Source: Thermoguttaceae bacterium (GTDB lineage Bacteria; Planctomycetota; Planctomycetia; Pirellulales; Thermoguttaceae). From it: a stretch of 51,144 nt of DNA. The stretch is taken from the NCBI GenBank assembly GCA_025062105.1, contig JANXAQ010000262.1:1-51144 (forward strand). The letters run 5' to 3'. Each line of letters starts with the position of its first letter. Position 1 is the first letter of the stretch. The position numbers and the translations under genes were made by a program. Below are positions 1-51,144 of this stretch, piece after piece. The notes under the pieces were generated by a model. That model had not been told where the DNA came from and did not search any database. It saw nothing but the letters and a program-made list of their open reading frames with translations.

Positions 1-21
1 GCTGGGCCAAAGGCCAAGCCA

Positions 22-46
22 CCCTTTCCCGCAGTGGGGAGAAAGG
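22..46. repeat. GC-rich palindromic (REP-like) unit
   Basis: A short imperfect palindrome with a CCCTTTCCC arm, a GCAG centre and a GGGGAGAAAGG arm. It matches the CCTCTCCCGCGGTGGGGAGAGG units clustered at the right end of the window (50600 onwards). It lies downstream of the GntR-type gene, which is transcribed towards it, so it could act as a 3' hairpin. That role is inference. Confidence 0.5.
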
Positions 47-105
47 AATTCGTCGAACTGTTCCATTCGACTGAAGTGTTCCCCATGCTTAGGAGTAGCC
101 TTTTC

Positions 106-837
106 TTATTGGATATTGGATTTTCGTTCCACTCGGCCGATCGCGTTTTGGAGATGTTGGAGCATGGCCTGTCGGGCCTGCTCCGGTTGGCCTTGGCGCA
201 CGGCCTCCAAAATCGCCTGGTGTTCGGCAATGGCCAGGCGGCGGATTTCAACGCTGTCCCGATACATAAATTGAAGTTCACATAACAAATCGCCAATGGT
301 AGCCATCAGCACATGAAAGATCGGATTACCGGTGGCTCGGGCCAGCTCCTGATGAAAAGCCATGTCGTGCCGAACGTAGCTGGGCCGGTCCTCCAGCGTA
401 TCCTGCATGGCCTCTACCGAGGCCTGGAGCCGTTCCAGATGTTCCGATTCACGTCGGCTGGCCGCTATCTGGGCAATGCTGGTCTCCAGGTGCATCCGCA
501 CCTCAAATAGCGCTGGAAGGTCCATACCGCCCTGCACTCGCAACAGCGGCGACAACTTGCCAAACAGCGTGCTCAAATCCAGCCGACGGACAAAGATCCC
601 TTTGCCGTGCTTGACCTCCAAAACGCCTAGTCCCTTGAGCACCGAGATAGCCTCTCGCAGCGGGAGTCGGCTTGCACCGACCATACGCACCAGTTCCCGT
701 TCCGAGGGCAATCGATCTCCCGGCCGAAGTCCTTTGGCGGCAATATACCGAATCAGACCCTGAGCGATCTGGTCGACTAAGGTAGAGGGTTTCTCGGCCA
801 CTAGAGGCAGTTGGACAAAGGGTTGGCTTACAGACAT
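106..837 (-). CDS. GntR-family transcriptional regulator, FadR/FCD subfamily
   Basis: A 243-residue DNA-binding repressor-type protein. An N-terminal winged helix-turn-helix spans about residues 19-85, with the GntR signature LRPGDRLPSERELVRMVGAS and a wing ending KHGKGIFVRR. An alpha-helical FCD ligand-binding domain spans about 105-232. D158, H162, H206 and H228 sit where FCD proteins bind a metal ion, so a carboxylate effector is likely (family knowledge). The ATG at 837 is the first start before the conserved domain, with only a weak ribosome site. No metabolic gene adjoins it, so the regulon cannot be read from context. A short palindrome 35 bp upstream (872-883) may be its own operator. 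The family call is firm; the ligand is unknown. Confidence 0.93.
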   Translation of the reverse strand: MSVSQPFVQLPLVAEKPSTLVDQIAQGLIRYIAAKGLRPGDRLPSERELVRMVGASRLPLREAISVLKGLGVLEVKHGKGIFVRRLDLSTLFGKLSPLLRVQGGMDLPALFEVRMHLETSIAQIAASRRESEHLERLQASVEAMQDTLEDRPSYVRHDMAFHQELARATGNPIFHVLMATIGDLLCELQFMYRDSVEIRRLAIAEHQAILEAVRQGQPEQARQAMLQHLQNAIGRVERKSNIQ

Positions 838-871
838 CGGAGACTGCCTTAGAAAACAAGAGGGGAAAATG

Positions 872-883
872 ATATGCTCATAT
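872..883. promoter_or_regulatory. possible GntR operator palindrome
   Basis: ATATG-CT-CATAT is a perfect 5-bp inverted repeat in the AT-rich stretch just upstream of the GntR-type gene. FCD-type GntR regulators often bind AT-rich palindromes of this size and repress themselves. Only one copy was seen, so this is a weak inference. Confidence 0.3.
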
Positions 884-940
884 TATCTCTAAGTGTAAGC
901 AAAAAAGAAAAACAAGTCAACCACCTAAAAAAATAATTTC

Positions 941-958
941 GCCCCCATTGTGGGGGGC
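941..958 (-). terminator. GC-rich hairpin followed by T-rich tract (minus-strand reading)
   Basis: GCCCCC and GGGGGC form a 6-bp stem around a 6-base loop. Read on the minus strand, the stem is followed within a few bases by a T-rich tract, the form of an intrinsic terminator. It lies upstream of the GntR-type gene and would insulate it from leftward transcription. The stem is short, so the call is tentative. Confidence 0.3.
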
Positions 959-1111
959 TTGTATGTAACGAAACACCTATATACCTACATAACCTAGTGC
1001 TTCATCCGACCTTAAGTTTGAGGATCATACCTTTCGGATAAGGAGTGATGGAAAGCGGAAACTTTGGCAAAAACCGGTTTTTCCACACCCGAGCCCAAAA
1101 GAAACTACAAA

Positions 1112-1302
1112 AGGAACCTCTACAAAAGCCTGAACATATAGTGAACTTTATGAACTTTTGATTCGATAGGCATTTGGCCGCTCCGTGCAAACACCTACTA
1201 TATGTAGGGCGATGACAGTGCTAGTAGCCCTATATATTGGGTTAGAGGTGAGGGGAATGGAAATGATATAAAAATATATCCTTTCAATTCTGCAGAGGTT
1301 CC
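1112..1302 (+). repeat. Family B repeat, near full length
   Basis: It starts AGGAACCTCT and ends GCAGAGGTTCC (terminal inverted repeats). Inside are the diagnostic CTGAACATATAGTGAAC block near the left end and a TATAAAAATAT block near the right end. It has no ORF of its own. Confidence 0.75.
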
Positions 1303-1990: not shown

Positions 1991-2464
1991 TCGCTGTTAT
2001 ACACAAGTTAAAGTTCAGACGCTCGGCTGTCACTTTATGCAAAGCAGGAAAACTCGTTGAACAACACAGAATGGATCAAATAGAAAATATAGAATAGGAA
2101 CCTCTGCAAAATCCTGAACATCCAGTGAACTTTATGAACTTTTGATTCTTTAGCCGTTCCGTTCTCCTGCGAGGACATCTACTGTCTGTTGGGTGCTAGC
2201 AATCCTGGCCCCCTATATGTTGTGTTAGAGGGATGCCAGCCAAAATGGTATAAAAATATCCCCTTTGAATTATGCAGAGGTTCCAATAAATCTTTTTCTG
2301 AAATTAAAGATCTGCTGATTTTCTAAATGATTTTTCCCAAATTGTGCAATTTATCCAAAGTAACCGTTGGCTTGTTTTGAAAGGTTGATTTATCCACCGG
2401 ATTGGGGTAATCGTTTGCTGCTGCTGTGAGGGTAAATCCATCCCAAAGATGTGTATAACAGCGA
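1991..2464 (+). repeat. Family F repeat interrupted by a family B copy
   Basis: The left end TCGCTGTTATACAC and right end GTGTATAACAGCGA are inverted repeats. The left part lies at 1991-2096 and the right part at 2285-2464, with a complete B element between them. Removing B plus one 4-bp AATA duplicate leaves 282 bp, the size of the other F copies (278-285). Confidence 0.75.
2097..2284 (+). repeat. Family B repeat inserted in family F, AATA target duplication
   Basis: GGAACCTCTGCA ... GCAGAGGTTCC element of 188 bp. AATA lies immediately on both sides (2093-2096 and 2285-2288), and intact F copies align across the join. This is direct sequence evidence that B is a mobile unit younger than F. 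Confidence 0.75.
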
Positions 2465-2504
2465 GCCCTGCATGGGAAGAGAAAATCATGTAAGAGCTCA
2501 AAAG

Positions 2505-2730
2505 GGTACCCTCTGAAAAAGTGCTCTGTAGGGGGGGTATTGAGCCATCCGCCTAGGACGGCCCTTCCGGGAGAGTATTCCCCACCTTCTAAGCCCAGGG
2601 AGAAGCCCTTTCCAAAATGGCTCCTTGGAACCTATGGCCTTCCAACAGGTTCGAGGGCTGCTAGGCATCCCAAAGGGCCTAGCTGACTTCAACTGACGCT
2701 CAGTCGGCCCAAAACAAGGACCCCCCATAA
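2505..2730 (+). repeat. Family J repeat
   Basis: It shares a block (CCAAAATGGCTCC, GGAACCTATG, CCTTCCAA, CCAAAGGGCCTAGCTG in order) with the reverse complement of 42900-43155. Only two copies were seen. There is no credible ORF; the minus-strand 76-codon frame is an accident of the repeat. Confidence 0.5.
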
Positions 2731-3105
2731 AGAGGAGCTTCAGAAACTCAGAGAAGATTCCTTAACCCTCAAATACTATAAAGGGGGCTGTGGCTTAGAA
2801 AACGGCCAAATGGAAAAAGAAACTGCCCCAATCAAAAACACAGGGGAAACTACTCGCTGCGAGCAAATATTCAAGCGAGCGAAGTATTCAATGATTTGGG
2901 GAAAACAGGCAAAACTCAAAAAAATCTAGGTTACCCGGCTTTTTCCTAAATTATCCATTTTCTCCAAATTATGGCTTTAGGGTTGGGATTCCGTTGAGCA
3001 GAGGAGTTTTTCCGAAAAAAGGATAATATTATATAGAGTCAATGCTCCATGAATTTGGATAAAATTAGGTGATCTTGGGCATTTAACCGTCCGAGGAGGG
3101 GAACT
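2731..3105. other. Non-coding stretch upstream of the zinc protease gene
   Basis: AT-rich, with no gene. A segment near 2940-2975 (TTTTCCTAAATTATCCATTTTCTCC) resembles 42625-42650, a possible further repeat trace. An AT-rich GGATAATATTATATAG at 3021-3036 could supply a -10 box for the downstream gene, but I see no well-spaced -35. Confidence 0.4.
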
Positions 3106-3813: not shown

Positions 3814-3835
3814 AAAAACGGCCTTCTTCTGCGAA

Positions 3836-3985
3836 CTCGACCTTTGCCATTTTTTCCTAATCCCTGTTTTCGCTAGGAGTTACGATGAACATCTTCCTTT
3901 GTTCACACCATCTCCTAAGTTCAATAATTCCAGGAAGTTAGAATTTTCCCGTTTCGGCAGGAGAGTAAAAATGGCAAAAGTCGAG
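3836..3985 (+). repeat. Family A repeat, full length
   Basis: 150 bp between CTCGACCTTTGCC and GGCAAAAGTCGAG, inverted ends. It begins 22 bp after the zinc protease stop. Confidence 0.75.
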
Positions 3986-6223: not shown

Positions 6224-6628
6224 TGCATCCTCCCGCAGAGTTGCACCGTCACTTCCTCCTCCCATCGGCCCATTCTTTGAAAAACTTCTCTATAACCGAC
6301 AAGGCCCAGCAGAATACCGATCCAACTCCTCTCCGTCAAGACAAACATTCTCCGAAAAATGGAAATATAGGTACTCTACGCAAAATAGGCAGACAGATTT
6401 GGGGACTCAACGAAGGAGATTAGGGGCAGGTGAGTGAGACTTGGAGAAAATAGGTAGTTCCTAGCCAGCGAATCAGCCTCCCTCCAGCCGGTGCCCAGGA
6501 GAAGTGATTGATTATGCTAGGATATTCACTAGTGCTCGAAGCAGTTTAACCCGAAACTAAAATTTCTATCGCAGATGCCGGACAATGCTAGCTTACTAGA
6601 GGTGCTGGCTTACTAGAGGCGGAACTCG
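6224..6628. other. Non-coding stretch, no gene seen
   Basis: Leader region of the Wzz-like gene and beyond. No ORF with coding character, no RNA gene and no repeat was recognised before the family B copy at 6629. Confidence 0.4.
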
Positions 6629-6810
6629 AGGAACTTCTGCATAATCCTGAACATATAGTGAACTTCGTGAATCTTCGATTTTCTAGCCGGTCGATTGTCC
6701 TATCTGGAAACCTACTATGTATTGAGGACTGCAATGCTAATACAACTATATGTTGTGTTAGAGGAAAAACCAGCCAAAATGGTATAAAAATACCCCTTTG
6801 AATGAAGCAG
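6629..6810 (+). repeat. Family B repeat, right end lost
   Basis: It starts AGGAACTTCTGCATAATCCTGAAC and continues to GAATGAAGCAG, where the GAGGTTCC terminus is replaced by the left end of a family A copy. The junction suggests A inserted at the very end of B, or that the tip was deleted. Confidence 0.65.
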
Positions 6811-6958
6811 CTCGACATTTGCCATTTTTAGCCTCTTGTGGAAAGTAGAAACCCCCAACTCATTGGAATTACCGGATTTAGGAAACTGAGTGCGCAGAAG
6901 GGAGATTCGCCGTAACTTCTTATTGAGAAAGAAGTTAGGAAGATTGGCAACAGCCTAG
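6811..6958 (+). repeat. Family A repeat, degenerate, abutting family B
   Basis: It begins CTCGACATTTGCCATTTT directly at the end of the B copy and ends in a decayed GGCAACAGCCTAG. Internal blocks (CATTGGAATTA, GATTCGCCGTAACTTC) match other A copies. Confidence 0.6.
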
Positions 6959-7068
6959 CTTAATGCCCATCTCCCTATATTTCGGACAGGTAGGCCGATC
7001 AGGAGAAAACTTGTAGAAGTGCATTAGGCCAACGGATGCCATAGGTCTGACAAACGGATGTTGTAGAA

Positions 7069-10179: not shown

Positions 10180-10350
10180 AGGAACCTCTGCAGAAACCTG
10201 AACATATAGTGAACTATATGAACTTTTGATTCGATAGGCTTTAGTCCCCTATCTAAATAGCTACTATATGTAGGATCTTGCCGTGCTTGCAACCCAATAT
10301 TGGCTCAGTCCCGGAAGGAGCCAAAATAGCATAAATTTCTAGGCAGCAGC
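10180..10350 (+). repeat. Family B repeat, right end decayed
   Basis: It starts AGGAACCTCTGCAGAAACCTGAAC and shares the central CTACTATATGTAGG block. The right terminus is unrecognisable (CTAGGCAGCAG). It lies between two same-strand exported-protein genes. Confidence 0.65.
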
Positions 10351-10380
10351 TCCCTTTTTGGAACCCTTATCTCATTAAAA

Positions 10381-10526
10381 CTCGACTTTTGCCATTTTGG
10401 GCCGCCTGCCGAAAAGAAAAAGCTTTAACTCCTGGGAATTATTTGAAGTTAGGAAATTGTGTGGCAAAGGGTATGCGTCGTAACTCCCGGAGAAAAAACA
10501 AGTTCGGGAAAAAGGCAAATGTTGAA
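10381..10526 (+). repeat. Family A repeat ending at a stop codon
   Basis: It starts CTCGACTTTTGCCATTTTGG and ends GGCAAATGTTGAA. The next bases (10527-10529) are the TAA stop of the kelch/Fn3 gene, read on the minus strand. Confidence 0.7.
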
Positions 10527-12757: not shown

Positions 12758-13219
12758 GTAGTTCGAAGTCGGATTGTCAAAACAAAATAGGTCTAACCCC
12801 TTTTGTTTTTACGGGAGTTATATAGTCTTTTATTTATACTACTTTGGAGGGGTTGCCAAAAACGGCTTGGCGGGTTCCCGTTGGATTGGCCAACCTCTGG
12901 GGTAGGAGCAGTCCACCAGCTTTGCTCCGGACCATAGCAGGGACAGGAAAACTTTGTCCTAACATATTGCATAATCATGAGTTAAGTTAATTTTCCCTCT
13001 TAAGAGGTCTTTGTTATACCACTCTGTTATACCACGAAAGAGTTGTTTTTGCGCCCTTCCTGTTTCTGATCCTCTTTGGGATGTTCTGGAATGCCAGAGC
13101 AAAAACCGATCTGAAAAATCTCTGGAAGCTTTGCGGGTAGAAGATGGAAGCTTTCTCTAACTTCTTGTGTATTAAGGAGTTCCAGAGAAATATTATCCAT
13201 TCCCTAGACTTTGAACTAC
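12758..13219 (+). repeat. Family H repeat, copy 1 (about 460 bp)
   Basis: Its ends GTAGTTCGAAGTC and GACTTTGAACTAC are inverted repeats. Long blocks match 31518-31940 in the same orientation (GGAAAACTTTGTCCTAAC, CACGAAAGAGTT, AATCTGAAAAATCT). Neither copy has a continuous ORF. It is the longest dispersed family seen. Confidence 0.7.
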
Positions 13220-13302: not shown

Positions 13303-13396
13303 ACGACGCTGTACGAAATGGGTTTGTGGGGGGCGTCCCAGAGATTTTGGGTGCCTGGCTGCCTTCTTCGACATCCGTTTAAAAATGGGAAGTTAG

Positions 13397-13545
13397 CTCG
13401 ACTTTTGCCCATTTTGGTCTTCTGCCGAAATGGGAAAGTTCTAACTCCCTGGAATTATTGGACTTAGGAAATTGTGAGAACAAAAGGCAGGTTTGTCGTA
13501 ACCCCTGGAGACAAAACAATTTAAGGAAAATGTCAAAGGTCAAGG
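13397..13545 (+). repeat. Family A repeat, full length
   Basis: It runs from CTCGACTTTTGCCC to a decayed GTCAAAGGTCAAGG. The orientation is the one with CTTCTGCCGAAA near the left end. Confidence 0.7.
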
Positions 13546-13927
13546 TTAGGCATTACAATATAAAGAAGTTCTTCTGAAATTCTGTACGTTCCTAAAAATT
13601 CCCTAACGATGGAGGCTAGTAGAAAGTTTGGTCCGTTCGATGGAGGACCTACTGGAGCCATTGTTTTGCCGGATACACCGACCCCAGCAACAAACCAAAA
13701 AGGGGAGCTAACATCGGTAGCCTTCTGGTTACGCTGCTTGGTTTGGAACATCTTTCGCTCCTAGCCGTTGTAGGGAAGGCACCAGCAGATACCCCTTTTA
13801 CCACCTCCCGAAAGGGAACTTCTTCAAAAGGACACGGAATCTGGAAAAGGACACGGAAATTGAGAAGTTGGCGTTTCTGTCTGGTGGTTTTTGGGTTGAC
13901 CGGTACGTCCAGGGAAACTTTTTGGCT
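13546..13927. other. Non-coding stretch, possible decayed repeats
   Basis: No coding ORF. A GGAGCCATT block and flanking bases faintly recall family J. The 99- and 75-codon frames here lack ribosome sites and protein-like composition. Confidence 0.35.
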
Positions 13928-14036
13928 ATGTGGAAAGGTTGTCCGCACTCTGAGGAGGTTTTGTCCATAATAGTCGGTATTGCTTCAGTTTTTGGGTGGG
14001 TTTAGGGCTCCCACCGGAATGGTTTCAACAGAGCCG
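13928..14036 (+). repeat. Family E repeat, copy 1
   Basis: It runs from GTGGAAAGGTTGTCCGCA to GGTTTCAACAGAGCC and closely parallels 20741-20847. A reversed relative lies at 43577-43660. Confidence 0.6.
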
Positions 14037-14132
14037 AACTCTTTCAAAATAGGGGAGTTCGGCATTCTAGGTCAAGCAGACCAAGAATCTTCTCTTCCTC
14101 TTGGAAAAATCCTTTTCCGGACAATCACTATG

Positions 14133-14275
14133 CTCGACTTTTGCCTTTTTGGGATTTCCTGCCGAAAAGGGGAAAATTCTAACTCCTTGGAATTATTGGA
14201 GATCGGGTGAACAGAAAGGATGTCGCTGTAACTCCTGAAAACTAAACAGGTTAGGGAAAATGGCAAAAGTCAAGC
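14133..14275 (+). repeat. Family A repeat, full length
   Basis: It runs from CTCGACTTTTGCC to GGCAAAAGTCAAG, with internal AACTCCTTGGAATTATTGGA. Confidence 0.7.
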
Positions 14276-14532
14276 GAAGGAACTTTCTGGACCCCAAATG
14301 CATTTTCCAGCCACTGGGCTTATTATCCGCTCCCAAACCTTCGCCTCCCAAGGAGCAGTTCAGCAGGAGGTAATTTTCTGGGCTTCCGCCGGATCACCAT
14401 CAGCCGGCTTCCTCCACTCGGCTGTATTTACTATCTACTTTTTACGGATTCTTGAGAGCTTTTCCAATGCTTGCCGTTTTTTGGTACTTTCTGAAAAATC
14501 TCTGCAGGAAGAGGCTATTGAGACAGTCCCAC

Positions 14533-14678
14533 CGAGTCAATCATTTTTGGCCTCGCCCAGGACGGGCAAAGCTCTAAGTCCATGTAACTATTGCAGTTAG
14601 GAAATTGGGTGCGCAAAAAGAGGTTTCGCCGTAACTATTGGAGGCAAACCAGGTTAGGAAAAATGGCAAAAGTCGAGT
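14533..14678 (+). repeat. Family A repeat with decayed left end
   Basis: The right end GGCAAAAGTCGAG and the internal TCGCCGTAACTATTGGAGG are intact. The left terminus is barely recognisable. The inner segment GGACGGGCAAAGCTCTAAGT is shared with the copy at 22374, which suggests a subfamily. Confidence 0.6.
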
Positions 14679-14745
14679 TCAGAAAGTACAAGATTTTTGA
14701 AAACCTTGCTTTTCTGCCGAACGAAGTCCCTCCTGCTACTCCTGG

Positions 14746-15307
14746 CTCGCTGTTATACACATTTTTGGGAGATATTTCCCATTCTAACGGCAGCAAATGA
14801 TTGCCCTAGATAGGGGTGCGGCTGAAATCCTGTGGGTTGATTAGGCAAGATGGACAATATAGGCAAACAAACCTCACCCCCTCAGAAAGCCAACTTTGCA
14901 CAGAACCTACCCATTTTACTTCCAGATGTAGAGAACTACACTCCTTCCAGAGACTCATACCCCTGGAATCTGGAATTCGGAGCTTTTTGCTTTTGGAAAT
15001 CCCTGTGGGAGGGCCGGTTCGATAGGCCTGGGGATTATCTATGTTCCCCAAAACACCTAAACTGACCAAAAAATCAGCCTCACCCCTAGATAGGGGAATA
15101 ACGAACCTTTCAAAAGAAGCTACTTGTTCCTTGGGAGAAATTGCAGCATTTAGGAAAGAATCACTTCCAAGAGCAAAAAGTGCTTGGTTTCAAAGACACT
15201 CTTAGATAGATCGCCTATTTTATCCATTCTGCGTCGTTCAACGAGCTTTTGGGATTTGGCTAAAGTGAAGTTCGAACACTTCAATGCCAACTTGGGGATA
15301 ACAGCGA
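14746..15307 (-). repeat. Family F repeat split by a family G insertion
   Basis: The ends TCGCTGTTATACAC and GATAACAGCGA belong to one F element. It is split at CCCTAGATAGGGG, which occurs at both edges of the insert (14804-14816 and 15084-15096). Removing the insert and one direct repeat gives 282 bp, matching other F copies. Confidence 0.75.
14817..15083 (+). repeat. Family G repeat, copy 1, inserted in F
   Basis: 267 bp with inverted ends around GGCTGAAAT and AATCAGCC, matching 43784-44035 along its length. The flanking 13-bp direct repeat is the clearest insertion signature in the window. No ORF longer than about 70 codons. Confidence 0.7.
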
Positions 15308-17613: not shown

Positions 17614-17799
17614 GGAACCTCTCCAAAATCCTGGACATATAGTGAACTGAAGAAACTTTTGATTCTGTAGCAGCCGGGTTTTCCTACCCGAATACCTACT
17701 ATTTATGGGTGCTAACAATGCTAGCAACGCTATATGTGGGGTTAGAAGGAGAGTAAGCCAATATGGTATAAAAATATCTTCTCGAATGAAGCAGAGGTT
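17614..17799 (+). repeat. Family B repeat, near full length
   Basis: It runs from GGAACCTCTCCAAAATCCTG to GAAGCAGAGGTT. The central palindrome GCTAACAATGCTAGC and GGTATAAAAATAT block are present. It lies about 200 bp upstream of ribF. Confidence 0.75.
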
Positions 17800-20393: not shown

Positions 20394-20417
20394 CCTCCCC
20401 AAGGGGCAATCTCTTAG

Positions 20418-20565
20418 CTCGACTTTTGCCATTTTCCCTAAATCCTTTTGTTTCCAGTAGTTACGACGAGACTTCCTTTTGTTCACATAATTTCCTAACT
20501 CCAATAGTTACAAGCTGTTAGTGTTTTCCTCTTCCGGGAGACGGCCTAAAATGGCAAAAGTCGAG
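20418..20565 (+). repeat. Family A repeat, full length and well preserved
   Basis: 148 bp between CTCGACTTTTGCCATTTT and AAAATGGCAAAAGTCGAG, near-perfect inverted ends. It is flanked by TTAG and CTAAG, consistent with a TA target. It abuts the family D element on the right. Confidence 0.8.
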
Positions 20566-20568
20566 CTA

Positions 20569-20725
20569 AGAGGCTGTCTGAAAAGAGCGTTTGGCTCGCT
20601 GGCCTGTCAAGTTGTTTCCACCATCAGGAGGAGCTACAAGCCAGATTTGGGCACCTTGGCTACCCAAAACCTTCACCGACCTTTGGAAAAGGAAGCTTGG
20701 CTACCTCCTTTTCAGACAACCTCTA
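20569..20725 (+). repeat. Family D repeat, copy 1
   Basis: Its ends AGAGGCTGTCTGAAAAG and CTTTTCAGACAACCTCT are inverted repeats. It closely matches 36439-36605. Like that copy, it starts directly at the right end of a family A element. Confidence 0.7.
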
Positions 20726-20740
20726 ACAAGCTGTGGTACT

Positions 20741-20847
20741 GTGGAAAGGTTGTCCGCAGTCTGAGGAGGGTTTGCCCATCCTGGTCGGTTTTGCTTCCGT
20801 GTTGGTGGGTTTAGGCCTCCGACCGGAAAGGGTTTCAACAGAGCCCC
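20741..20847 (+). repeat. Family E repeat, copy 2
   Basis: It runs from GTGGAAAGGTTGTCCGCAGTC to GGTTTCAACAGAGCC, parallel to 13928-14036. Confidence 0.6.
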
Positions 20848-20959
20848 TCCAGCGAACCGCCATCGAAGTTAGGAAATGGGAAGAACAAAATGAGGTTTCG
20901 CAAGTACTACCGGTAACCACGTTAAGGAAAACAGCACAAGCTGAGGTTAGAAATTGTCC

Positions 20960-21390: not shown

Positions 21391-21393
21391 TAG

Positions 21394-21541: not shown

Positions 21542-21668
21542 CTTAGGGTGTTGGGGGCTGTTGCTAGAGTGCTGCTAGGAAGAAGGAAATTGCTTTCACA
21601 ACAGGAGGTTAGCTCGAGTTTGCCATTGTTGCCTCACTGCTTTTGCTTCCCCAAGCACTGAGCTCCCT

Positions 21669-22345: not shown

Positions 22346-22373
22346 TCCCCCCCTGGCAGAGGAATGCTCTAAG

Positions 22374-30168: not shown

Positions 30169-30212
30169 CCGGGAAAACGAAGATTGCTTTTGTTGAAAGT
30201 TGACGTCCTTAG

Positions 30213-30352
30213 TTCAACTTCTGCTATTTTCCATAACATGTTTTGCTTCAGAGACTTACGGCAACTCCCCTTTTGGTCGCCCAATTTCCCAACGTGAATA
30301 ACTCCGAACAATTCCCTAACAATTAGATCTCTCCCCTTTCGGCAAAAGGAGT
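30213..30352 (+). repeat. Family A repeat, degenerate right end
   Basis: It starts TTCAACTTCTGCTATTTTCC and continues through the A body to CCCTTTCGGCAAAAGG. It begins 44 bp after the FlgI-like stop. Confidence 0.6.
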
Positions 30353-30495: not shown

Positions 30496-30497
30496 TC

Positions 30498-30775
30498 TCG
30501 CTGTTATACACATTTTTGGGAGGTATTTCCCATTCTAACGGCGGCAAAGTATTACCCAAACAGGGGAATAACGAAGCTTTCAAAAGAAGCTAATTGGTAC
30601 TTTGGAGAAATCGCAGCATTTAGGAAAGATCACTTTCAAGAGTAAAAAGTGCTTGGTTTCAAAGACTGTCTTAGCTAGATCGTCTATTGTATCCATTCTG
30701 CGTTGTTCAACGAGCTTTTGATATTTCCCTAAAGTGAAGTTCGAACGCTTCGACGGCAATTTATGTATAACAGCC
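30498..30775 (-). repeat. Family F repeat, full length, uninterrupted
   Basis: It runs from TCGCTGTTATACACATTTTTG to ATGTATAACAGCCA, 278 bp. It provides the reference for the split copies at 1991 and 14746. Confidence 0.75.
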
Positions 30776-30880
30776 AGACATATACCTAGATGTTCGGATG
30801 GGAGGCCAATCCCTATCAAATCAAGAGTCCTTGTATTCACTATATGTTCAGTTACACAGAGATGCCAAAAGAAAAAATTT

Positions 30881-31070
30881 AGGAACCTCTGCATAATTCA
30901 AAGGGGATATTTTTATACCGTTTTGGCTGGCCTCCCTCTAACACAACATATAGGGGCGCTAGGATTGCTAGCACCCAACAGATAGTAGATGTCCTGGCAG
31001 GACAACGGAACGGCTAAAGAATCAAAAGTTCATAAAGTTCACTGGATGTTCAGGATTTTGCAGAGGTTCC
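30881..31070 (-). repeat. Family B repeat, tandem copy 1
   Basis: It runs from AGGAACCTCTGCATAATTC to TTGCAGAGGTTCC, well preserved. TTTA flanks both sides of GGAACC...GGTTCC. Confidence 0.8.
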
Positions 31071-31073
31071 TTT

Positions 31074-31258
31074 AGGAACCTCTCCATAATTCCGCAGAGA
31101 TTTTTTAGACCATGTGAGCTTACCCCATAACCCAATAGAAGCCAATAGAAGGGTTGCTAGCGCCTATAGATAGTCGCTGTTTAGCTAGGAAAACCGAACG
31201 GCTATAAAATCAAACGTTCATAATGTTCATTATATGTTCAGAATTTTGCAGAGGTTTC
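31074..31258 (-). repeat. Family B repeat, tandem copy 2
   Basis: It runs from AGGAACCTCTCCATAATTCC to TTGCAGAGGTTTC and is followed by another TTTA. The pattern is TTTA-B-TTTA-B-TTTA. Confidence 0.75.
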
Positions 31259-31283: not shown

Positions 31284-31440
31284 AAAAGGCTGCCCTGAAA
31301 TGGGGATTTTGGCGGAGTGGAAAGGATTTTGGCTGATTGGCGTTTTTGTGCGATATTCCTTGAAAATAGGGCATTTGGACATTCTGGGCAATTTAAGGAG
31401 GGAACTTTCTTTTACATAGAAAAAGCTTTTCGAGCCGGTC
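31284..31440 (+). repeat. Family C repeat, degenerate
   Basis: It runs from AAAAGGCTGCCCTGAAATGG to AAAGCTTTTCGAGCCGG, with an internal GGGCATTTGGACATTCTGG. It is followed by a family A left end. Confidence 0.55.
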
Positions 31441-31517
31441 TCGGAGCTCAAGTTTTGCCATTTTTGGCAGCCTGCCTAAAGGAGGAAGTTATAACTCCTC
31501 AAGTATTGTTGGCCTCG

Positions 31518-31940
31518 GTAGTTCAAAGTCGGGTTACCAGAACAAAATAGTTCTAACCCTTTATTTTTAAAGGAGTTATATCGCCTACTCTTTATACCGC
31601 TTTGGAGGGTGAGGCAAAAACGGCTTGGCTATTCCAGTTGGGTTGGCCTGCCTCTGCGCTGGGGGGCCAGCACAGCTGGTTAGATCCGCGCCAGGGCGCA
31701 CGGGAAAACTTTGTCCTAACCGATTGCATAATCCTCGGTTAGATTCATTTTCCGTCTTAAGGGGTTTTTTGTCCACGAAAGAGTTATTTTAGGCTCCTTC
31801 CTACCCCTGATCCCCTTTGGGTTGTTGTGGGAGGCCAGAGCCAAACCCAATCTGAAAAATCTTTAGAAACTTTTCGGGTAAAATTCCTAACTTCTTGTAT
31901 ATTAAGGAAACATTATTCGTTCACTAAAAACTTTGAAGTA
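31518..31940 (+). repeat. Family H repeat, copy 2
   Basis: It runs from GTAGTTCAAAGTC to ACTTTGAAGTA, 423 bp. It is co-linear with 12758-13219 over its full length, with many substitutions. Confidence 0.7.
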
Positions 31941-31950
31941 TTTGGACTTC

Positions 31951-32110
31951 GAGGCTGTTCTAAAATGGGAAGTTGGCTGGATTCCAATGGGTTTTGGCCG
32001 ACCGGCTCCTATCCTCCACGCTTCTTAAAAACAGGAATTTTGGGGATTCTGGGGCATTTAGGAAAGAAACCTCCTTTCATCATGGAAAATGCTTTTTCGG
32101 ACTGCCTCTT
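31951..32110 (+). repeat. Family C repeat, copy 3
   Basis: It runs from GAGGCTGTTCTAAAATGG to TTTTTCGGACTGCCTCTT. Confidence 0.7.
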
Positions 32111-32311
32111 AGGAATGTCGTAACTGCTGGATTCAAAAGTAAGTAGGAAAAAAATTGCAAAAGTCGCGATTAGCAATCGGACTCAGCCTGTGCCCTTCGG
32201 CAGTTGGAATTGGGTTGGCTGAAGCAAGTCAGGCTGGTAGAATCGAACGAATAGTTTTTTGTCCAGGATAGCCACCCAAATGGGCTTCCTCCCCAGAAGG
32301 AAAACACACGC

Positions 32312-35950: not shown

Positions 35951-36295
35951 CATGGTAACCGACGGGAAGATGCACCTAATTTTGGAAGATGTAAAAATAA
36001 TTTTAGGACCTCTAGAAGGTTATTTAGAGCCTCTAACAAAATCTTGAGGTTTCCTACCATCCCTAAGGAGGCAGGTAGCACCTCAGAACCATCTAGATTT
36101 TCATTTTGTTAGATGCGCTCAATCTTTCCCAATTTGCCCAATCTTACCAATTTTCCCAGCCACCTCATATTCCGCGGAATACCTCCCCTTGACTTGCACC
36201 TTGGCGGCATTCCGCCTAGATTAAAAGAAAGGAGAGGCTGGGTGAGGTTACAGGAGAAAAGTTCTCTCTTAAGGACTTCCCACAGCTTCTCTAAC
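35951..36295. other. Non-coding stretch after smc
   Basis: No gene recognised. A direct echo of AGGACCTCTAG / AGAGCCTCTAAC near 36006-36040 could be decayed repeat ends. Confidence 0.4.
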
Positions 36296-36436
36296 CTCGA
36301 GGTTTACCATTTTTGGCCTCGCTCTCGAAGAGTAATGTTCTAACTGCTTGTAAATATAAGAAATTGTGTGAACAAACGAAGATTTCGCCCTAACTACTGG
36401 AAGCAAAAATAGTTAGGGAAAATAGCAAAAGTCGAG
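36296..36436 (+). repeat. Family A repeat
   Basis: It runs from CTCGAGGTTTACCATTTTTGG to AGCAAAAGTCGAG. It is immediately followed by family D. Confidence 0.65.
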
Positions 36437-36438
36437 CC

Positions 36439-36605
36439 AAGAGGTTGTCTGAAAAGAGTTTTTTGGCTCACTGGGCTGGCAAGTTGTTTCCCCCACCAGG
36501 AGGGGCTCCAGCCCAGGATTTGGGCACCTTGGCTCCCTAGAGCCTTCACCGGCCTTTGGAAAAAGAAAAATTGGCTACTTCCCTTTCCTTTTCGGGCAGC
36601 TTCTA
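36439..36605 (+). repeat. Family D repeat, copy 2
   Basis: It runs from AGAGGTTGTCTGAAAAG to CTTTTCGGGCAGCTTCT and closely matches 20569-20725. It lies upstream of the kinase gene. Confidence 0.7.
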
Positions 36606-37741: not shown

Positions 37742-37931
37742 AGAACCTTCTGCATAGTTTCTAAGGGGATATTTCTATACCATTTTGGTCTTTCCTCTCC
37801 TTAACCCAACATCTAGGGCTGCTCGCATTGCTAGCACCCAATAGATAGTTAATGTCCAGGTACGACAAGCGGACGCTAGAGAATCAAAAGTTCACAAATT
37901 TCCCTATATGTTCAGAATTTTGCTGAGGTTG
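37742..37931 (-). repeat. Family B repeat, near full length
   Basis: It runs from AGAACCTTCTGCATAGTTTC to ATTTTGCTGAGGTTGC. A second, solitary B end (TAGAACCTCTGACAAAATC) lies just before it at 37722. Confidence 0.7.
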
Positions 37932-38075
37932 CTGAAAGTGTAGAATGAGAATCTAGATGGTTCTGGGAGCTTTCTACTCACTTGGGGAGGAAATCCCAAG
38001 TTGGCAGAAGCTCTGAGTTCGATGAGGATCTAGCGGGTACTTCGGCCACTTTGGTTACCCCCAACGGATGCAGCC

Positions 38076-38423: not shown

Positions 38424-38601
38424 CTGATTGATTCCGCTTCTTGACATCCCATTTCCATTGCTCCGCAGCCTTGGGCCTTTATTGTGTTTGCTGCGCAAGG
38501 GGGTAGGCCAATGTTGTGCAATGCCGTGGTTCAGCCAATGGCCCGGGCGATCTATAGTTAGTTGGAAGGTGGTTGAGCGATACCGGGGGATCATTTCTCA
38601 G

Positions 38602-38750
38602 CTCGACTTTTGCAATTTTTTCCTAACTGCTTTTATTTCCAGGAGTTAGGAAGAAACCTTCTTTTGTTCACCCAATTTCTTACCTCCAATAGTTACAAGA
38701 AGTTAGAACTTTTCCCATCCGAGAGGAAGCTAAAAATGGCAAAAGTCGAG
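38602..38750 (+). repeat. Family A repeat, full length, well preserved
   Basis: It runs from CTCGACTTTTGCAATTTT to AAAATGGCAAAAGTCGAG. It is followed directly by family C. Confidence 0.8.
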
Positions 38751-38753
38751 CTC

Positions 38754-38913
38754 AGAGGTTGTCCTAAAATGGGGATTTGGCTGGTTTCTAGTGCGGTTTG
38801 GCCGACCGGCTCCTATCCTTTAGAGTCCTTAAAAACAAGGATTTTGGGGATTCTAGGGCATGGAGGAAGGAAACCTCCTTTCATCATAGAACATGCTTTT
38901 TCGAACAGCCTCT
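38754..38913 (+). repeat. Family C repeat, copy 4
   Basis: It runs from AGAGGTTGTCCTAAAATGG to TTTTTCGAACAGCCTCT, with internal CCTCCTTTCATCATAGAA. Confidence 0.75.
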
Positions 38914-41597: not shown

Positions 41598-41787
41598 AGG
41601 AACCTCTGTATAATTATAGAGATATATTTTTATACCATTTTGGTTCCCTCTGCCTCTGACCCAATATATGGGGTTGGTAGCACTGGTAGCAACCGACATA
41701 GAGTAAGTGTTTAAATGGCGGGAGCGAAAGCCTATCGAATCAAAAGTTCATAAAGCTCACTATATGTTCAGAATTCCGGAAGGTTCC
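41598..41787 (-). repeat. Family B repeat starting at the manA stop
   Basis: It runs from AGGAACCTCTGTATAATTATAG to AATTCCGGAAGGTTCC. Its first base directly follows the manA TAA. Confidence 0.75.
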
Positions 41788-42713: not shown

Positions 42714-42862
42714 CAACTTGGCTTTTGCCATTTGGACTTTGGCTTGGAATCCTAAGGTTTTAGCTTCTTGTAACTATTGGACTTAGGAAATTGAGTGCAG
42801 AAAGGAGGTTTCGCCGTACCTAATGGAAACAAAAGAAGTTAAGGAAAATGGTAAATAGGAGC
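42714..42862 (+). repeat. Family A repeat, degenerate
   Basis: The A body is recognisable (TTCTTGTAACTATTGGACTTAGGAAATTGAG, then TTTCGCCGTACC), with eroded ends. Confidence 0.55.
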
Positions 42863-42899
42863 AAAGAGTCCCTGAGAATACCTAAGTTTCCTTGCAGTC

Positions 42900-43155
42900 T
42901 GTACTTTCCGAAAAATTCCCCTTTAGGGGGGTTAAATTGTTCTGGTTTCGGCTTACCTTCATCGGCTGCCAGCTAGGCCCTTTGGATTGGCTAGCAGCGT
43001 AACCTTATTGGAAGGTCATAGGTTCCCAGGAGCCATTTTGGTAGGGTCTTTGGCGGGGGCTTAGAAGTTGGAAATGCTCTTCGGGAATGGGCGGCCCGGT
43101 TGGGCTGGCTCCATAGCATCTGCTCCTAACGAGTGATTTTGCAGAAAGTACAGTT
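42900..43155 (-). repeat. Family J repeat, second copy, inverted
   Basis: The reverse complement parallels 2505-2730 through the CCAAAATGGCTCC and CCAAAGGGCCTAGCTG blocks. Confidence 0.5.
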
Positions 43156-43281: not shown

Positions 43282-43470
43282 AGGAACCTTTGCGTAATCC
43301 TGAACATATAGTGAATTATATGAACTTTCGATTCGATAGCGGTTCGGTTCTTCTACCCGAAAACCTACTATCTATTAATTGCAGCAATGCTAGCACCCCT
43401 AGATATTGGGTTAAAGGGGGATAAGCCGCATAGTATAAGAATATCCTCTTCCCATTAGCCCCAGGGTTCC
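43282..43470 (+). repeat. Family B repeat, near full length
   Basis: It runs from AGGAACCTTTGCGTAATCC to CCCAGGGTTCC, with ATTGGGTTAAAGG and a TATAAGAATAT block. Confidence 0.7.
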
Positions 43471-43474
43471 TAGC

Positions 43475-43575
43475 ATATATAGGGCGTAACTATATTGGCA
43501 CCTTATATATTAGGGGTTAGAAGTACTGCACTTAAAATGGTATAAAAATATCTCCGTCGAATTATGCAAAGGTTC
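43475..43575 (+). repeat. Family B right half
   Basis: Only the right half is present, with AATGGTATAAAAATATC and ATTATGCAAAGGTTC. It directly follows the previous copy. Confidence 0.6.
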
Positions 43576-43576: not shown

Positions 43577-43660
43577 TGGCTGTGTTGAAAGCTTTTCTGG
43601 TCGGAGACCTAAACTCACCAAAACTGGAGACAGCCTGACTCGCATGAGCAAAACCTTCCT
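43577..43660 (-). repeat. Family E repeat, reversed and partial
   Basis: GGCTGTGTTGAAAGCTTTTCTGGTCGGAG is the reverse complement of the right end of the copies at 13928 and 20741. Confidence 0.5.
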
Positions 43661-43783
43661 AAAGAATGAACAAATTTTTAATAGCACCGAGCCGTTTCTA
43701 GTGGTATCCGCTTTCGGTCTCTTCTTGTCTTCTAGGAGTGGGGAACATTTGGTGGTGGGAGAAGTCTTCGGAACCGCTTGGGT

Positions 43784-44035
43784 GGGGGGCTGAAATTCTG
43801 TGGAGCAATTGGGCAAAACAGAACTAGAAAAACAAGCCTACCCCCTGGGATTTCCGCTTTGCCAGCACCTAGCCGTTTTCCTGATATACCTAAACTCCTA
43901 CCAGAGAGTCATAGCCCTGGGGATCTGGAATACAGGGCCCTTGGTTGCTACAGATGTCAGCAAGAAGCAGTGGGATTGGACTGGGGATTACCCATCTTCC
44001 GGAACCTTCCTAAACGGACCACAAAAATCAGCCCC
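43784..44035 (+). repeat. Family G repeat, copy 2
   Basis: It runs from GGGGGCTGAAATTCTGTGG to AAAAATCAGCCCC and is similar along its length to the insert at 14817-15083. Confidence 0.65.
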
Positions 44036-44334
44036 GCTGGGCGGGAATGACAAAGACGGCTGATTGGTCTAAGATGGAATAGGGTCCTTCTTTCCCCGGC
44101 AAAAACGGAAGCCAGCTCCGTAATTTTACCCTCCAGAGGAACATCCCTTTCTGTTAGGTTCTGTGTCTGGGGAGACCTTTTTGGTTGGGAGGTCCAAGTT
44201 CATCAAAATGGCGCAAAAACCAACCCGTGGGGGAATCCTCCGATAGTACTGGGTACCTTACCACAGAGCCTTCGGTTATGCGAGGTGGACGGAATTATTG
44301 CCTTTCGTTCACATAACCCCCTCCTGCCTTAGCC
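44036..44334. other. Non-coding stretch, no gene seen
   Basis: Nothing recognised apart from a GGGCGGGAATGAC trace near 44040 that resembles the right-end palindromic repeats. Confidence 0.4.
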
Positions 44335-44473
44335 TGCGTTTTGCCAATTTCCAGAAGGTGTCTCTTTGGATAACCCATTGAAAATATTGGAGTTAGAGGT
44401 AGGTGAACAAAAGGAAGTCTCGTCGGAACTCCTCCAAGCCAACCAAGTTAGGGAAAACGGCGAAAGTGGAGCT
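44335..44473 (+). repeat. Family A repeat in the leader of the giant gene
   Basis: It runs from a decayed TGCGTTTTGCCAATTTCC to GGCGAAAGTGGAG, 80 bp upstream of the ATG at 44554. Confidence 0.6.
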
Positions 44474-44553
44474 TGGAACCACCCGCCCAGAGGCGGTTTA
44501 GATATAGGGTCTGTAGCAGGTCTTTTGTAGGGGTTGGGTTAAGGAGCAGAATG

Positions 44554-49089: not shown

Positions 49090-49109
49090 AATTGAAAAGG
49101 AACCTTTAC

Positions 49110-49253
49110 CTCGACGTATTCCATGTTTCCTCACTGCTTTTGTTTCCAGGAGTTCCACGTAACTCCTTTTGTTCGGGCAACTTCCTAAGTCCAATAATTA
49201 CAAGCAGTTAGAGTTTCCCCTTCGGGCCGAGCCCAAATTGGTAAAAGTCGAGT
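49110..49253 (+). repeat. Family A repeat
   Basis: It runs from CTCGACGTATTCCATG to GGTAAAAGTCGAG. It starts 20 bp after the giant gene's stop. Confidence 0.65.
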
Positions 49254-49257
49254 TTCC

Positions 49258-49344
49258 GTAATTCTAGAGAAAATAGTCCGTCTTACCTGATATCTTGGGT
49301 TGCTAGTACTGCTAGCACCCTAAACCCTAAGTATAGTAGCTAGG
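49258..49344 (-). repeat. Family B fragment
   Basis: The central B block GGTTGCTAGTACTGCTAGCACC without either terminus, lying between two A copies. Confidence 0.45.
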
Positions 49345-49366
49345 TGTTTCTCGGAGGGCAGTTAAA

Positions 49367-49513
49367 CTCGACTTTTGCCAATTTCCAGAGTCCAAATTTC
49401 TTTTGAGGTTCTAACCCTTAGAAAATATTAGGGTTAGGAAAATTGGTGAACAAAGAATCCTCAAAACCTAACTCCTGGAAATAAAAGAACTTACAAAAAT
49501 AGCAAAAGTCGAG
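49367..49513 (+). repeat. Family A repeat
   Basis: It runs from CTCGACTTTTGCCAATTTCC to AGCAAAAGTCGAG. It ends 76 bp upstream of ispH. Confidence 0.7.
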
Positions 49514-49589
49514 CGAAAGCCTACAAAATATATTCCAGATGATGCAGAGATTCCAGCACCAATTCCGTTTCTGGGGAAGGGCTTGTTGA

Positions 49590-50531
49590 ATGCAGATCAT
49601 TCTGGTTCAGCCCAGAGGATTTTGTGCCGGGGTGCGGATGGCGCTACAGACGCTGGAGCAGGCGTTGGAGCGGTTTGGCCCACCGGTGTATGTGTATCAT
49701 GAGATTGTGCATAACCGGTGGGTGGTGGAGGATTTTCGGCGGCGAGGGGCGGTGTTTGTAGAAGATTTAGCTCAGGTGCCTGGGGGGGCGTATTTGATTT
49801 TGTCGGCTCATGGGGTTTCGCCGGCTGTTCGAGCCGAAGCCACTGCCCGAGGCCTAAGGGTGATTGATGCCACCTGCCCTCTGGTAACGAAAGTTCATCA
49901 GGAGGCCATCCGATTCGCCCAACAAGGGTATCGGATTTTGCTCATCGGCCATGCAGGCCATGACGAAATCGTTGGCGTCATGGGCGAAGCGCCCGAGGCG
50001 ATTTGGTTGATCCAATCGGCCCAAGATGTAGATCAGCTCCAGTGGCCGCCGGATACCAAAGTGGCCTATCTGACGCAGACGACCCTTTCCAAATCGGAGG
50101 TGGAGAAGATCGTTGCGCGGCTTCGGGAGCGGTTTCCCCAAATCGTCGGCCCCTCCAAAGATGACATCTGCTATGCCACGCAAAACCGGCAGGAGGCAGT
50201 TCGGCTCCTGGCTCCGGAGGTAGATATGGCTCTGGTGGTCGGAAGTGCCAATAGCTCCAATAGCCGGCGACTGGCTGAAATCGCACAGGCCCAAGGAGTG
50301 CCCGCTTATCTGATCGACGGTCCCCAGGACCTCCGGCCTGAGTGGTTCCGAGGCGATGAAACGGTTCTGCTCACGGCTGGCGCCAGTGCACCGGAACATC
50401 TGGTAGCCGAGTGCCTCCAGTGGCTCCAGGAGCGATTCCAAGCCACGGTCCATGAACGCATCGTCTGCCAAGAACACATCCAGTTCCCGCTACCGGCGGA
50501 ATTGCGACGGTTGTCGAAGCCGGTAAAATGA
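49590..50531 (+). CDS. ispH: 4-hydroxy-3-methylbut-2-enyl diphosphate reductase
   Basis: A 313-residue iron-sulfur enzyme for the last step of the MEP isoprenoid pathway, reducing HMBPP to IPP and DMAPP in the cytosol. The three cluster cysteines are C12 (RGFCAGV), C96 (DATCPLV) and C194 (DDICYATQNRQ). The substrate-contacting H41, H74, H124 and E126 are all at their E. coli positions, as is the SANSSNS loop. The length is normal. The ATG at 49590 has GGGAAGGG about 9 bases upstream. It stands alone, with no other MEP genes in the window. Confidence 0.97.
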   Translation: MQIILVQPRGFCAGVRMALQTLEQALERFGPPVYVYHEIVHNRWVVEDFRRRGAVFVEDLAQVPGGAYLILSAHGVSPAVRAEATARGLRVIDATCPLVTKVHQEAIRFAQQGYRILLIGHAGHDEIVGVMGEAPEAIWLIQSAQDVDQLQWPPDTKVAYLTQTTLSKSEVEKIVARLRERFPQIVGPSKDDICYATQNRQEAVRLLAPEVDMALVVGSANSSNSRRLAEIAQAQGVPAYLIDGPQDLRPEWFRGDETVLLTAGASAPEHLVAECLQWLQERFQATVHERIVCQEHIQFPLPAELRRLSKPVK

Positions 50532-50599
50532 TGGCCTCCGGTGTGCCTTGGACGTTCTCCCGGAGTGGTGGACAAAGGGTTGGACCCCAGTAACCGGTC

Positions 50600-51144
50600 T
50601 GCTGAGGTAGCTGGCTTCTTTTGCGGTGGGGAGAAGCGGAGGGGAGCCTGCAGCCGGTGTGCTTACGCACACCACCCTCTCCCGCGGAGGCAAGAGGGGA
50701 TTTTTCTGGATCCCTGCTTGCGCAGGGATGACAATAGGGGCGTGCCCGGAGCCGGATGGGCCTTGGGGTGTCATTCCTGCGAAAGCAGGAATCCAGGCCT
50801 CTCTGGGCAGGCACTCTTGGTAAAAGAATGGCCTACTTACCCGAACCCTCTTGGCGCGGTGGGGAGATGGGAGGAGGCCCCCTCACCCGGCCTGCTGCGC
50901 AGAGCGGCCTCTGCCGCGGTGGGGAGAGGGGGATTTCCCCCTCACCCGGCCAGGCTAACGCCTGGCCGGCCTCTCCCGCGGTGGGGAGAGGCGTTTTTTC
51001 TGGACTGCCGCTTGCGCGGGAATGACAATAGGCGCCCCCTCACCCTAACCCTCTCCCGCGGTGGGGAGAGGGGACGGACAAGGGGGTAGCGCAAAGGAGC
51101 CCGGATCCCTGCTTGCGCAGGGATGACATCGGAGGCCCCCTCAC
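50600..51144. repeat. Cluster of GC-rich palindromic (REP-like) repeats
   Basis: Two alternating motifs fill the region after ispH. Motif 1, CTCTCCCGCGGTGGGGAGAG, is at about 50682 (imperfect), 50910, 50970 and 51052, often preceded by CCCCCTCACC. Motif 2, CTGCTTGCGCAGGGATGAC or its reverse GTCATTCCTGCGAAAGCAGG, is at about 50717, 50770, 51005 and 51108. Both fold into strong hairpins. The 182-codon plus-strand frame across them is repeat read-through, not a gene. The cluster runs off the window edge. Confidence 0.75.

Follow-up and report, generated by a model that had tools for sequence, protein, structure and literature searches.

What fills the non-coding DNA of a planctomycete contig in which nearly half of the bases lie outside genes? 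The contig (JANXAQ010000262.1, C304 in our numbering) belongs to GenBank assembly GCA_025062105.1 of a Thermoguttaceae bacterium, a metagenome-assembled genome (MAG) of 345 contigs and 6.07 Mb that is 93.8% complete with 0.8% contamination. The whole contig, 51,144 nucleotides long, is referred to here as the window. An earlier note on this DNA had put its coding sequences at about 28 kb of 51 kb and had described the gaps as largely built of repeats, a community resembling miniature inverted-repeat transposable elements (MITEs) that stays out of genes. We consider it very probable that the non-coding DNA of the window, and of the other parts of the genome that were sampled, is filled by at least eight MITE families, likely copied in trans by several transposases, with the family termed A most likely copied by a transposase of the IS701 family.

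A purpose-written hexamer gene caller, trained on the same genome, assigned 26,658 of the 51,144 bases of the window (52.1%) to 20 genes, close to the earlier figure, and gave a coding share of 60.8% in a sample made up of the window and 120 further stretches of this genome (1.73 Mb in total; 1.713 Mb readable, 28% of the genome). Six sampled contigs, each shorter than 3 kb, consisted of N only (C44, C70, C90, C182, C231 and C342). De novo repeat calling in the sample produced 22 profiles, grouped as families A, B, C, C2, D, E6, F9 and F10 plus minor ones; extension of the profiles into their flanks fused adjacent families, so the extended profiles were discarded. Comparison of the window with itself by BLAST gave 303 repeat pairs at E≤1e-3. 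Profile annotation of the window resolved 73 elements or fragments (A, 27; B, 17; D, 7; C, 5; E6, 4; F9, 3; F10, 3; C2, F12 and F17, 2 each; F14, 1), which span 10,957 bp, or 21.4% of the window and 44.7% of its intergenic DNA, and overlap called genes by 0 bp. The intergenic share rises to 57% if any match elsewhere in the sample is counted. The description of the non-coding DNA as largely built of repeats therefore applies to about 45% of it by profile, or to 57% by the wider count.

The same picture extends to the rest of the sample. Counting every base that has three or more repeat partners, the repeated share is 17.6% for the sample as a whole, 44.0% for intergenic DNA and 0.46% for called genes. 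Profile matches number 2,117 and cover 17.0% of the sample, and 12 of them lie mostly within called genes, which agrees with the earlier claim that the repeats stay out of genes, as far as intact genes are concerned. The eight families with clear ends and target duplications account for 1,847 matches in 1.713 Mb and 16.2% of bases. Their median full lengths range from 111 to 284 bp. Of the 1,847 matches, 1,173 extend over 90% or more of the model, a number that corresponds to about 4,200 in the whole genome. With fragments included, extrapolation gives about 6,500 matches for the eight families (A, 2,537; B, 1,800; C, 634; D, 408; E6, 404; F10, 393; C2, 209; F9, 159). Densities of A in three subsamples were 364, 447 and 456 per Mb, and of B 222, 344 and 293 per Mb, so the rates of both agree within about 1.6-fold; the window, with 547 A per Mb, is somewhat above average. 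Searches of the whole genome found 1,864 A termini (20 bp, at most 2 mismatches) and 808 B termini (at most 3 mismatches), and the reversed-pattern controls found 0 for each. Hundreds of intergenic copies in the genome had been predicted, and the counts and extrapolations give hundreds to thousands. Two results that were to count against the prediction, copies confined to the window and similarity due to low-complexity bases, are both contradicted by the 1,864 A termini and their empty control.

The consensus ends are inverted in all of A, B, C, C2, D, E6, F9 and F10, and in all eight families matching outer flanks are commoner than in shuffled pairs, which upholds the proposal of a MITE-like community in intergenic space. 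Target duplications were assessed by taking the best of 1,521 registers per family and comparing it with five shuffles of the flank pairing. The excess is large for B (89 of 270 against 3.8 expected, 4 bp), D (23/54 against 0.2, 8-bp register), E6 (25/95 as a 7-mer against 0.0, 9-bp register), F9 (8/25 against 0.0, about 7 bp) and F10 (10/31 against 0.0, 8 bp). For A, 154 of 341 flank pairs agree against 43.4 expected in a CTNA register, and a motif-anchored count found agreeing 4-mers at 134 of 363 copies. For A, a duplication of only 3 bp, TNA, was considered and given up, since the CTNA 4-mer preserves almost the whole excess (111 against 120); the length may also be 5 bp. C2 gave 16/46 against 4.8, all TNAG, and C gave 38/106 as a 4-mer against 12.6, its top-scoring register being a 2-mer (63 against 25.2). 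The registers (about 4 bp for A, B, C and C2; 9 for E6, 8 for D, 7 for F9 and 8 for F10) and the ends differ among families, with C and C2 alike, which suggests about seven different transposases.

Nested insertions add a second line of evidence. All 32 of the 32 split elements have their gap filled (>60%) by annotated elements, and two such cases lie in the window. The D element at 14745-15307 (minus strand; defined by profile and flanks) is interrupted by a complete, full-length F10 (14814-15085, plus strand, 268 bits), with the 8-bp sequence CTAGATAG exact on both sides at 14806-14813 and 15086-15093. The D element at 1991-2466 (plus strand; halves 1991-2079 and 2288-2466; profile F8 78 bits, F7 141 bits) is split by a B element (2097-2284, plus strand, profile F2 200 bits) flanked by AATA at 2093-2096 and 2285-2288. 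On these grounds the eight repeat families are MITEs, and we infer transposition itself from the nested insertions, which serve as indirect proof. Ten insertions of B into B were also found, and 6 of the 10 occupy a near-identical site at model positions 78-88, a clustering that has the look of a self-targeting hot spot.

If the families are non-autonomous, what copies them? Candidate drivers were screened by demanding that an open frame fill the interval between a pair of ends; without that rule, the screen returned ordinary genes between adjacent MITEs. The starting point for A was a transposase adjoining an A-type terminus in a genome of another genus (G020), which has a homologue here on contig C130. 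There, a 1,613-bp element (locus L141, 14420-16032) has ends that match the 20-bp terminus of A at 20/20 and 19/20 positions and contains an open frame that runs for 542 codons, or 446 if counted from its first ATG. The encoded protein scores 251 bits against the IS701 model NF049999 (cut-off 170; residues 101-515 matched) and has a Pfam DDE_5 domain. IS701 elements make 4-bp target duplications; the duplication of A, about 4 bp in the CTNA register but perhaps 5 bp, may agree with this. Six loci, counting the query's, reach 45% identity across 100 residues or more, and 5 of the 6 carry an A-type terminus. Of the full set of 27 homologue loci, which includes some places more than once, 9 have one when up to 5 mismatches are allowed. 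As compared, the interior of A has no resemblance to the ends of the IS701 element beyond the terminus. A is likely moved by an IS701-family transposase whose unbroken gene is in the same genome.

For B, the candidate is a 1,580-bp element with ends GGAACCTCTGAATAA and a 343-codon open frame. Its predicted transposase (L193, 1048-2076) has the domain pair DUF772 and DDE_Tnp_1, which we take to mark the IS5 family, and its ends have GGAACCTCTG in common with B, the first 10 bases being identical. These features suggest that B is probably driven by an IS5-family element. The genome has 26 DDE_Tnp_1 matches, most of them partial or with stops. One is in the window, the wreck of an IS5-like transposase at 26439-26839 (minus strand; PF01609 and copy alignment), of which about a dozen related, mostly broken copies occur elsewhere in the genome. 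IS5-like wrecks of this sort (DDE_Tnp_1/PF13586) were rejected as drivers of A or B, as their common 3' end TTAGAGCGTGTTTGAGAA differs.

The distribution of A and B in relatives bears on when they spread. An A query matched 4 of 60 genomes, this one counted, and in two of these only about 22-28 bp of the terminus matched; a B query matched 3 of 60, again with this one counted, all within the genus. Against 1,864 A termini here, two same-genus genomes have 14 and 0, and no other among 119 genomes of the family has more than 8; for B, the 808 termini here compare with 108 and 0 in those two relatives, plus single matches in three others. None of the 22 profiles matched in 19 loci (232 kb) of named planctomycete relatives. 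Ten loci of a same-genus genome (G001), picked for their matches, contain A, B and traces of other families. As judged from these terminus counts, the expansion of A and B appears largely specific to this species and recent on the scale of the genus; yet among full-length copies the median identity to the consensus is 83-84%, and just a part of B is young. Two further observations concern A-type ends outside the genus. In one genome (G069), eight A-type termini are spread over contigs C15, C29, C33, C115, C117, C123, C125 and C160, and five of these loci end about 140 bp inside the element, so that a multi-copy element has probably collapsed in that assembly. In G020, a 153-bp element (L317, 55-207) has the ends of A and about its length with a different interior.

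The strongest alternative is that the elements are fossils, decaying remnants of old bursts whose transposition systems are all dead. The median consensus identity of 83-84% for full-length A and B suggests that most copies are old, and the mostly partial or stop-containing state of the 26 DDE_Tnp_1 matches fits as well. So does the result of the driver search for C, C2, D, E6, F9 and F10, in which the sample and loci searched contained no clear driver between matching ends and the end-pair screen listed few candidate proteins. Against this stand the unbroken IS701 frame, one unbroken IS5-type frame, and the young part of B: of the 40 best-scoring among 1,166 candidate matches, one of them the query itself, 33 share 94% identity or more with the copy in the window. 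Many B copies have also kept perfect duplications. We consider it rather unlikely that all of the systems are dead.

A second alternative accepts the MITEs and denies the driver of A: the ends of the IS701 element could be a chance pair of A termini around a gene. A termini are frequent, and 59 candidate intervals passed a loose screen. However, the L141 interval ranks first of the 59 (it was entered twice, from two loci), and its frame fills 94% of the interval. In addition, contig C259 has a second, broken copy (L368, 677-2204), again bounded by A-type ends, with 3 and 2 mismatches, and homologues in three other genera, whose genomes have 1 to 6 A termini each, also adjoin one. Chance pairing is therefore very unlikely, and we favor copying of A by the IS701-family transposase.

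The arrangement of the elements suggests how such a load could accumulate. Neighboring elements abut in 573 of 1,399 pairs, compared to a mean of 157 and a maximum of 186 in 200 trials of random placement in the same gaps, and the commonest abutting pair is A-C (134). The motif CTNAG flanks A on the left in 122 and on the right in 132 of 363 copies, against a background of 0.36% of positions. Because the first and last bases of A complete the motif, an insertion into CTNAG would leave CTNAG at both edges, as far as the sequences indicate. We propose that A lands in CTNAG and recreates it on both sides; later A- and C-type elements would then likely land at the edges of A, producing abutting arrays, and the load would likely grow in the gaps without striking genes. 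Insertions in genes and close to start codons would be removed by selection. The density of CTNAG is 2.41 per kb in genes and 3.13 per kb in free intergenic DNA, and 68% of CTNAG sites outside elements fall in genes. With the motif nearly as dense in genes, the near absence of elements from them, as described in the earlier note, probably reflects selection rather than targeting. Consistent with this, 42 elements lie within 50 bp of the nearest start codon compared to 160 that close to a stop codon, and elements per kb of remaining intergenic DNA number 7.1 in convergent, 5.5 in co-directional and 3.6 in divergent gaps.

This intergenic distribution would also be expected if the repeats were functional modules of RNA or DNA, such as terminators, small RNAs or REP-like (repetitive extragenic palindromic) palindromes, maintained by selection and not mobile. 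The inverted ends are able to pair, and A is oriented slightly unevenly between co-directional genes, pointing with them in 165 cases and against them in 217 (p 0.009), which could hint at read-through effects. The target duplications and nested insertions contradict this explanation, and B has no clear bias (119 versus 142, p 0.17). Among 12 window copies of A, a two-sided compensatory change was found in 1 of 22 predicted pairs, with an unfavorable covariation term (+0.46), and no Rfam family reached its gathering score in the window. We regard this explanation as highly improbable. That the load is an artefact of assembly or binning is hardly credible: the MAG is fragmented and incomplete, and six sampled contigs are N only, but the majority of full-length copies are 8-25% diverged from the consensus and each has its own surroundings, samples from long contigs and from contig starts give similar rates, contamination is low, and a separate same-genus assembly has A and B in smaller numbers.

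Several points nonetheless weigh against the reading of eight MITE families copied in trans by transposases, or reduce its reach. No movement was observed for any family. The duplication excess is only moderate for A, C and C2, in which the target motif is itself repetitive; the registers were picked as the best of many; and the minor repeats F12 and F18 gave no clear signal in the register test. About a third of the eight-family matches are fragments, which the hit totals include, and a split element enters those totals more than once; the figures for the whole genome are scaled up from the 28% of it that was sampled, in an assembly of 345 contigs. Insertion-wrecked genes are not called, so avoidance of genes, judged on intact genes, is possibly overstated. 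The lineage comparison by whole-genome searches of relatives covers A and B. As for the IS701 candidate, the element was found by homologue search at just two places in the MAG, its own flanks agree at 3 of 4 positions (CTTA/CTAA), an A terminus is missing at L367, which is among the six loci with the most similar transposases, and 18 of the 27 homologue loci, mostly distant ones, lack an A-type terminus at up to 5 mismatches. The ends of the IS5-type candidate match B at only 13-15 of 16 bases, and its own flanks are ATA/ATA rather than a 4-bp duplication.

The gene content of the window is ordinary and includes a GntR/FadR regulator, SMC, TatC, an FlgI-like protein, P-II and LytB, among others. 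The nearest named relatives of its riboflavin kinase/FAD synthetase are Planctomycetota, several of them Pirellulales, with a top protein identity of 73%, although records of the genome itself were possibly outside that search.

Between these genes, A elements lie on the plus strand at 3834-3985 (114 bits), 20413-20571 (167 bits and self-BLAST; its outer 25 bp, 20411-20435 and 20548-20572, are perfect inverted repeats), 23527-23682 (118 bits), 30208-30349 (49 bits), 38597-38755 (154 bits) and 49106-49254 (104 bits), with a weak match at 21609-21750 (30 bits), fragments at 23331-23409 (49 bits) and 26289-26376 (37 bits) and an end fragment at 25714-25755 (27 bits). Minus-strand copies of A occupy 10379-10526 (103 bits), 13393-13549 (131 bits), 14128-14278 (103 bits), 14542-14682 (129 bits), 22368-22519 (148 bits), 36290-36441 (115 bits), 42715-42855 (95 bits) and 44328-44475 (68 bits); two more abut other elements, a B at 6809-6962 (98 bits) and a C at 21389-21546 (129 bits). 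Also on this strand are a weak A at 20810-20950 (36 bits), fragments at 31444-31508 (33 bits) and 32117-32173 (27 bits), and a member of a second subfamily (F5/F15) at 49374-49514 (92 and 41 bits). One A-C-A-B-A array starts with A at 24686-24843 (plus, 168 bits), continues through C at 24843-24997 (plus, 155 bits), A at 25000-25151 (plus, 94 bits) and B at 25156-25352 (minus, 75 bits), and ends with A at 25351-25507 (minus, 118 bits).

Plus-strand B elements are found at 1112-1301 (full length, profile F2, 133 bits), 6629-6810 (146 bits), 17614-17799 (155 bits), 20972-21144 (88 bits) and 43282-43457 (130 bits), together with a 3'-truncated copy at 10180-10335 (84 bits) and fragments at 23413-23461 (29 bits), 23851-23948 (64 bits) and 43462-43575 (45 bits). 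On the minus strand, B is present at 31076-31258 (115 bits), 37747-37931 (158 bits) and 41600-41787 (122 bits), as a truncated copy at 23679-23834 (115 bits) and as an end fragment at 23496-23530 (36 bits). The minus-strand copy at 30883-31071 (212 bits) belongs to the young subfamily, is flanked by TAAA on both sides and has near-identical copies elsewhere. C elements, all on the plus strand, lie at 21233-21387 (161 bits), 31287-31433 (74 bits), 31951-32106 (164 bits) and 38755-38910 (161 bits), the last abutting A, as do both C2 elements (20571-20722, 147 bits, and 36443-36587, 144 bits; minus). Three further D elements are at 27147-27435 (plus, 81 and 160 bits), 27526-27807 (plus, 65 and 153 bits) and 30497-30777 (minus, 194 and 78 bits).

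E6 elements were annotated at 13924-14035 (plus, 95 bits), 20738-20845 (plus, 111 bits), 43578-43684 (minus, 60 bits) and, weakly, 44166-44270 (minus, 35 bits). F9 is full length at 42899-43150 (minus, 266 bits), with another element at 2508-2746 (plus, 143 bits) and a fragment at 14485-14548 (plus, 27 bits), and F10 recurs at 43786-44035 (plus, 186 bits) and as a weak, partial element at 6436-6612 (minus, 25 bits). Among the minor repeats, F12 has inverted ends without a clear target duplication at 36028-36111 (minus, 73 bits) and a weak match at 37944-38012 (plus, 30 bits), and F17, with 11 matches in the sample, lies at 12786-12936 (plus, 95 bits) and 31546-31693 (plus, 148 bits). F14 (50878-50991, plus, 87 bits) is a GC-rich tandem repeat kept outside the MITE count; the 62-bp repeat extends over 50847-50991, has 66 genomic matches and looks REP-like rather than MITE-like. 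Profiles F21 and F22 also look REP-like. They describe a palindromic GGATTCCCGCTTTCGCGGGAATGACA-like repeat with 30 and 17 matches in the sample and none in the window, which also occurs in the G001 loci.

Repeat-rich genomes are known in other bacteria, such as Trichodesmium and Microcystis. Since MITEs are a known kind of element, the "undescribed system" of the earlier note overstates matters as regards the kind; what looks new is the load, how many independent systems were amplified together, and the end-to-end stacking. In the available part of a 2024 review of bacterial MITEs (ERIC, Correia, RUP/BOX and Chunjie), the largest count is 711 ERIC copies, plant MITEs are given 8-10% of the genome with nothing like it observed in prokaryotes, and the pneumococcal BOX, RUP and SPRITE elements are described as clustered and inserted into one another (PMC10969869). 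Like ERIC, Correia, RUP/BOX and Chunjie, the families here are short, non-coding and intergenic, with inverted ends and a target duplication; unlike them, eight families take up 16.2% of the sample and two are extrapolated to about 2,500 and 1,800 copies with fragments counted, as far as a comparison by description goes. The load exceeds what that part of the review reports, and we make no claim to the largest known. A MITE of Cardinium, derived from an IS982-family element, is described in the accessible text as having spread in a lineage-specific manner, with the intact parental insertion sequence (IS) as the proposed source of transposase (PMC9769881). Lineage-specific spread and an intact parental IS as the proposed transposase source are features in common with our case; the Cardinium MITE is one family, of IS982 origin, in a host-restricted endosymbiont, whereas our planctomycete genome of 6 Mb contains several families that differ in their ends and in the length of their duplications. 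REP/REPIN palindromes with their RAYT proteins (REP-associated tyrosine transposases) are likewise high-copy intergenic repeats, and REPs are reported in Planctomycetes in the text seen of PMC3733652. They are 20-40 bp palindromes without target duplication, compared to 111-284 bp with duplications for A to F10. For Thiomargarita nelsonii, the portion available gives a MITE with matches on 260 of 439 contigs, and an intergenic share of 18% (PMC4853749). Literature searches that included the available parts of PMC3733652, PMC12542641 and PMC4853749 found no earlier planctomycete MITE of this sort. Among the literature matches listed, no report of a repeat-rich planctomycete or of a bacterial MITE load as high in copy number or as nested was apparent, nor, among those listed for IS701 and MITE together, any IS701-derived MITE.

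In plants, MITEs of the Tourist and Stowaway type occur as many families at once and make up a large share of the genome. One interpretation of our findings, possible but on balance doubtful, is that this bacterium harbors a comparable ecosystem, in which at least seven systems with different ends would have added about 1 Mb, by extrapolation, through a change at the level of the host and spread by stacking. A general change in the host, either lost restraint of transposition or drift in small populations, and not the success of a single element, would account for their joint expansion; each copy would make two safe landing sites, and intergenic gaps would grow by accretion. Unlike the plant elements, these would have bacterial IS-type drivers in a dense genome, with growth nearly all in intergenic gaps.

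In practical terms, planctomycete MAGs built from short reads may be broken at repeats of this kind. Bacterial genomes are held to be compact, with transposon debris removed by selection and deletion. In this genome, miniature transposons of several independent systems make up roughly a sixth of the DNA sampled, nearly all of it between called genes, while in one genome of the same genus the two largest families are almost absent. A and its unbroken IS701 partner would offer a ready two-component system for the bench. The load would make two questions testable in a bacterium, namely what restrains non-autonomous elements and how the choice of target permits their harmless accumulation.

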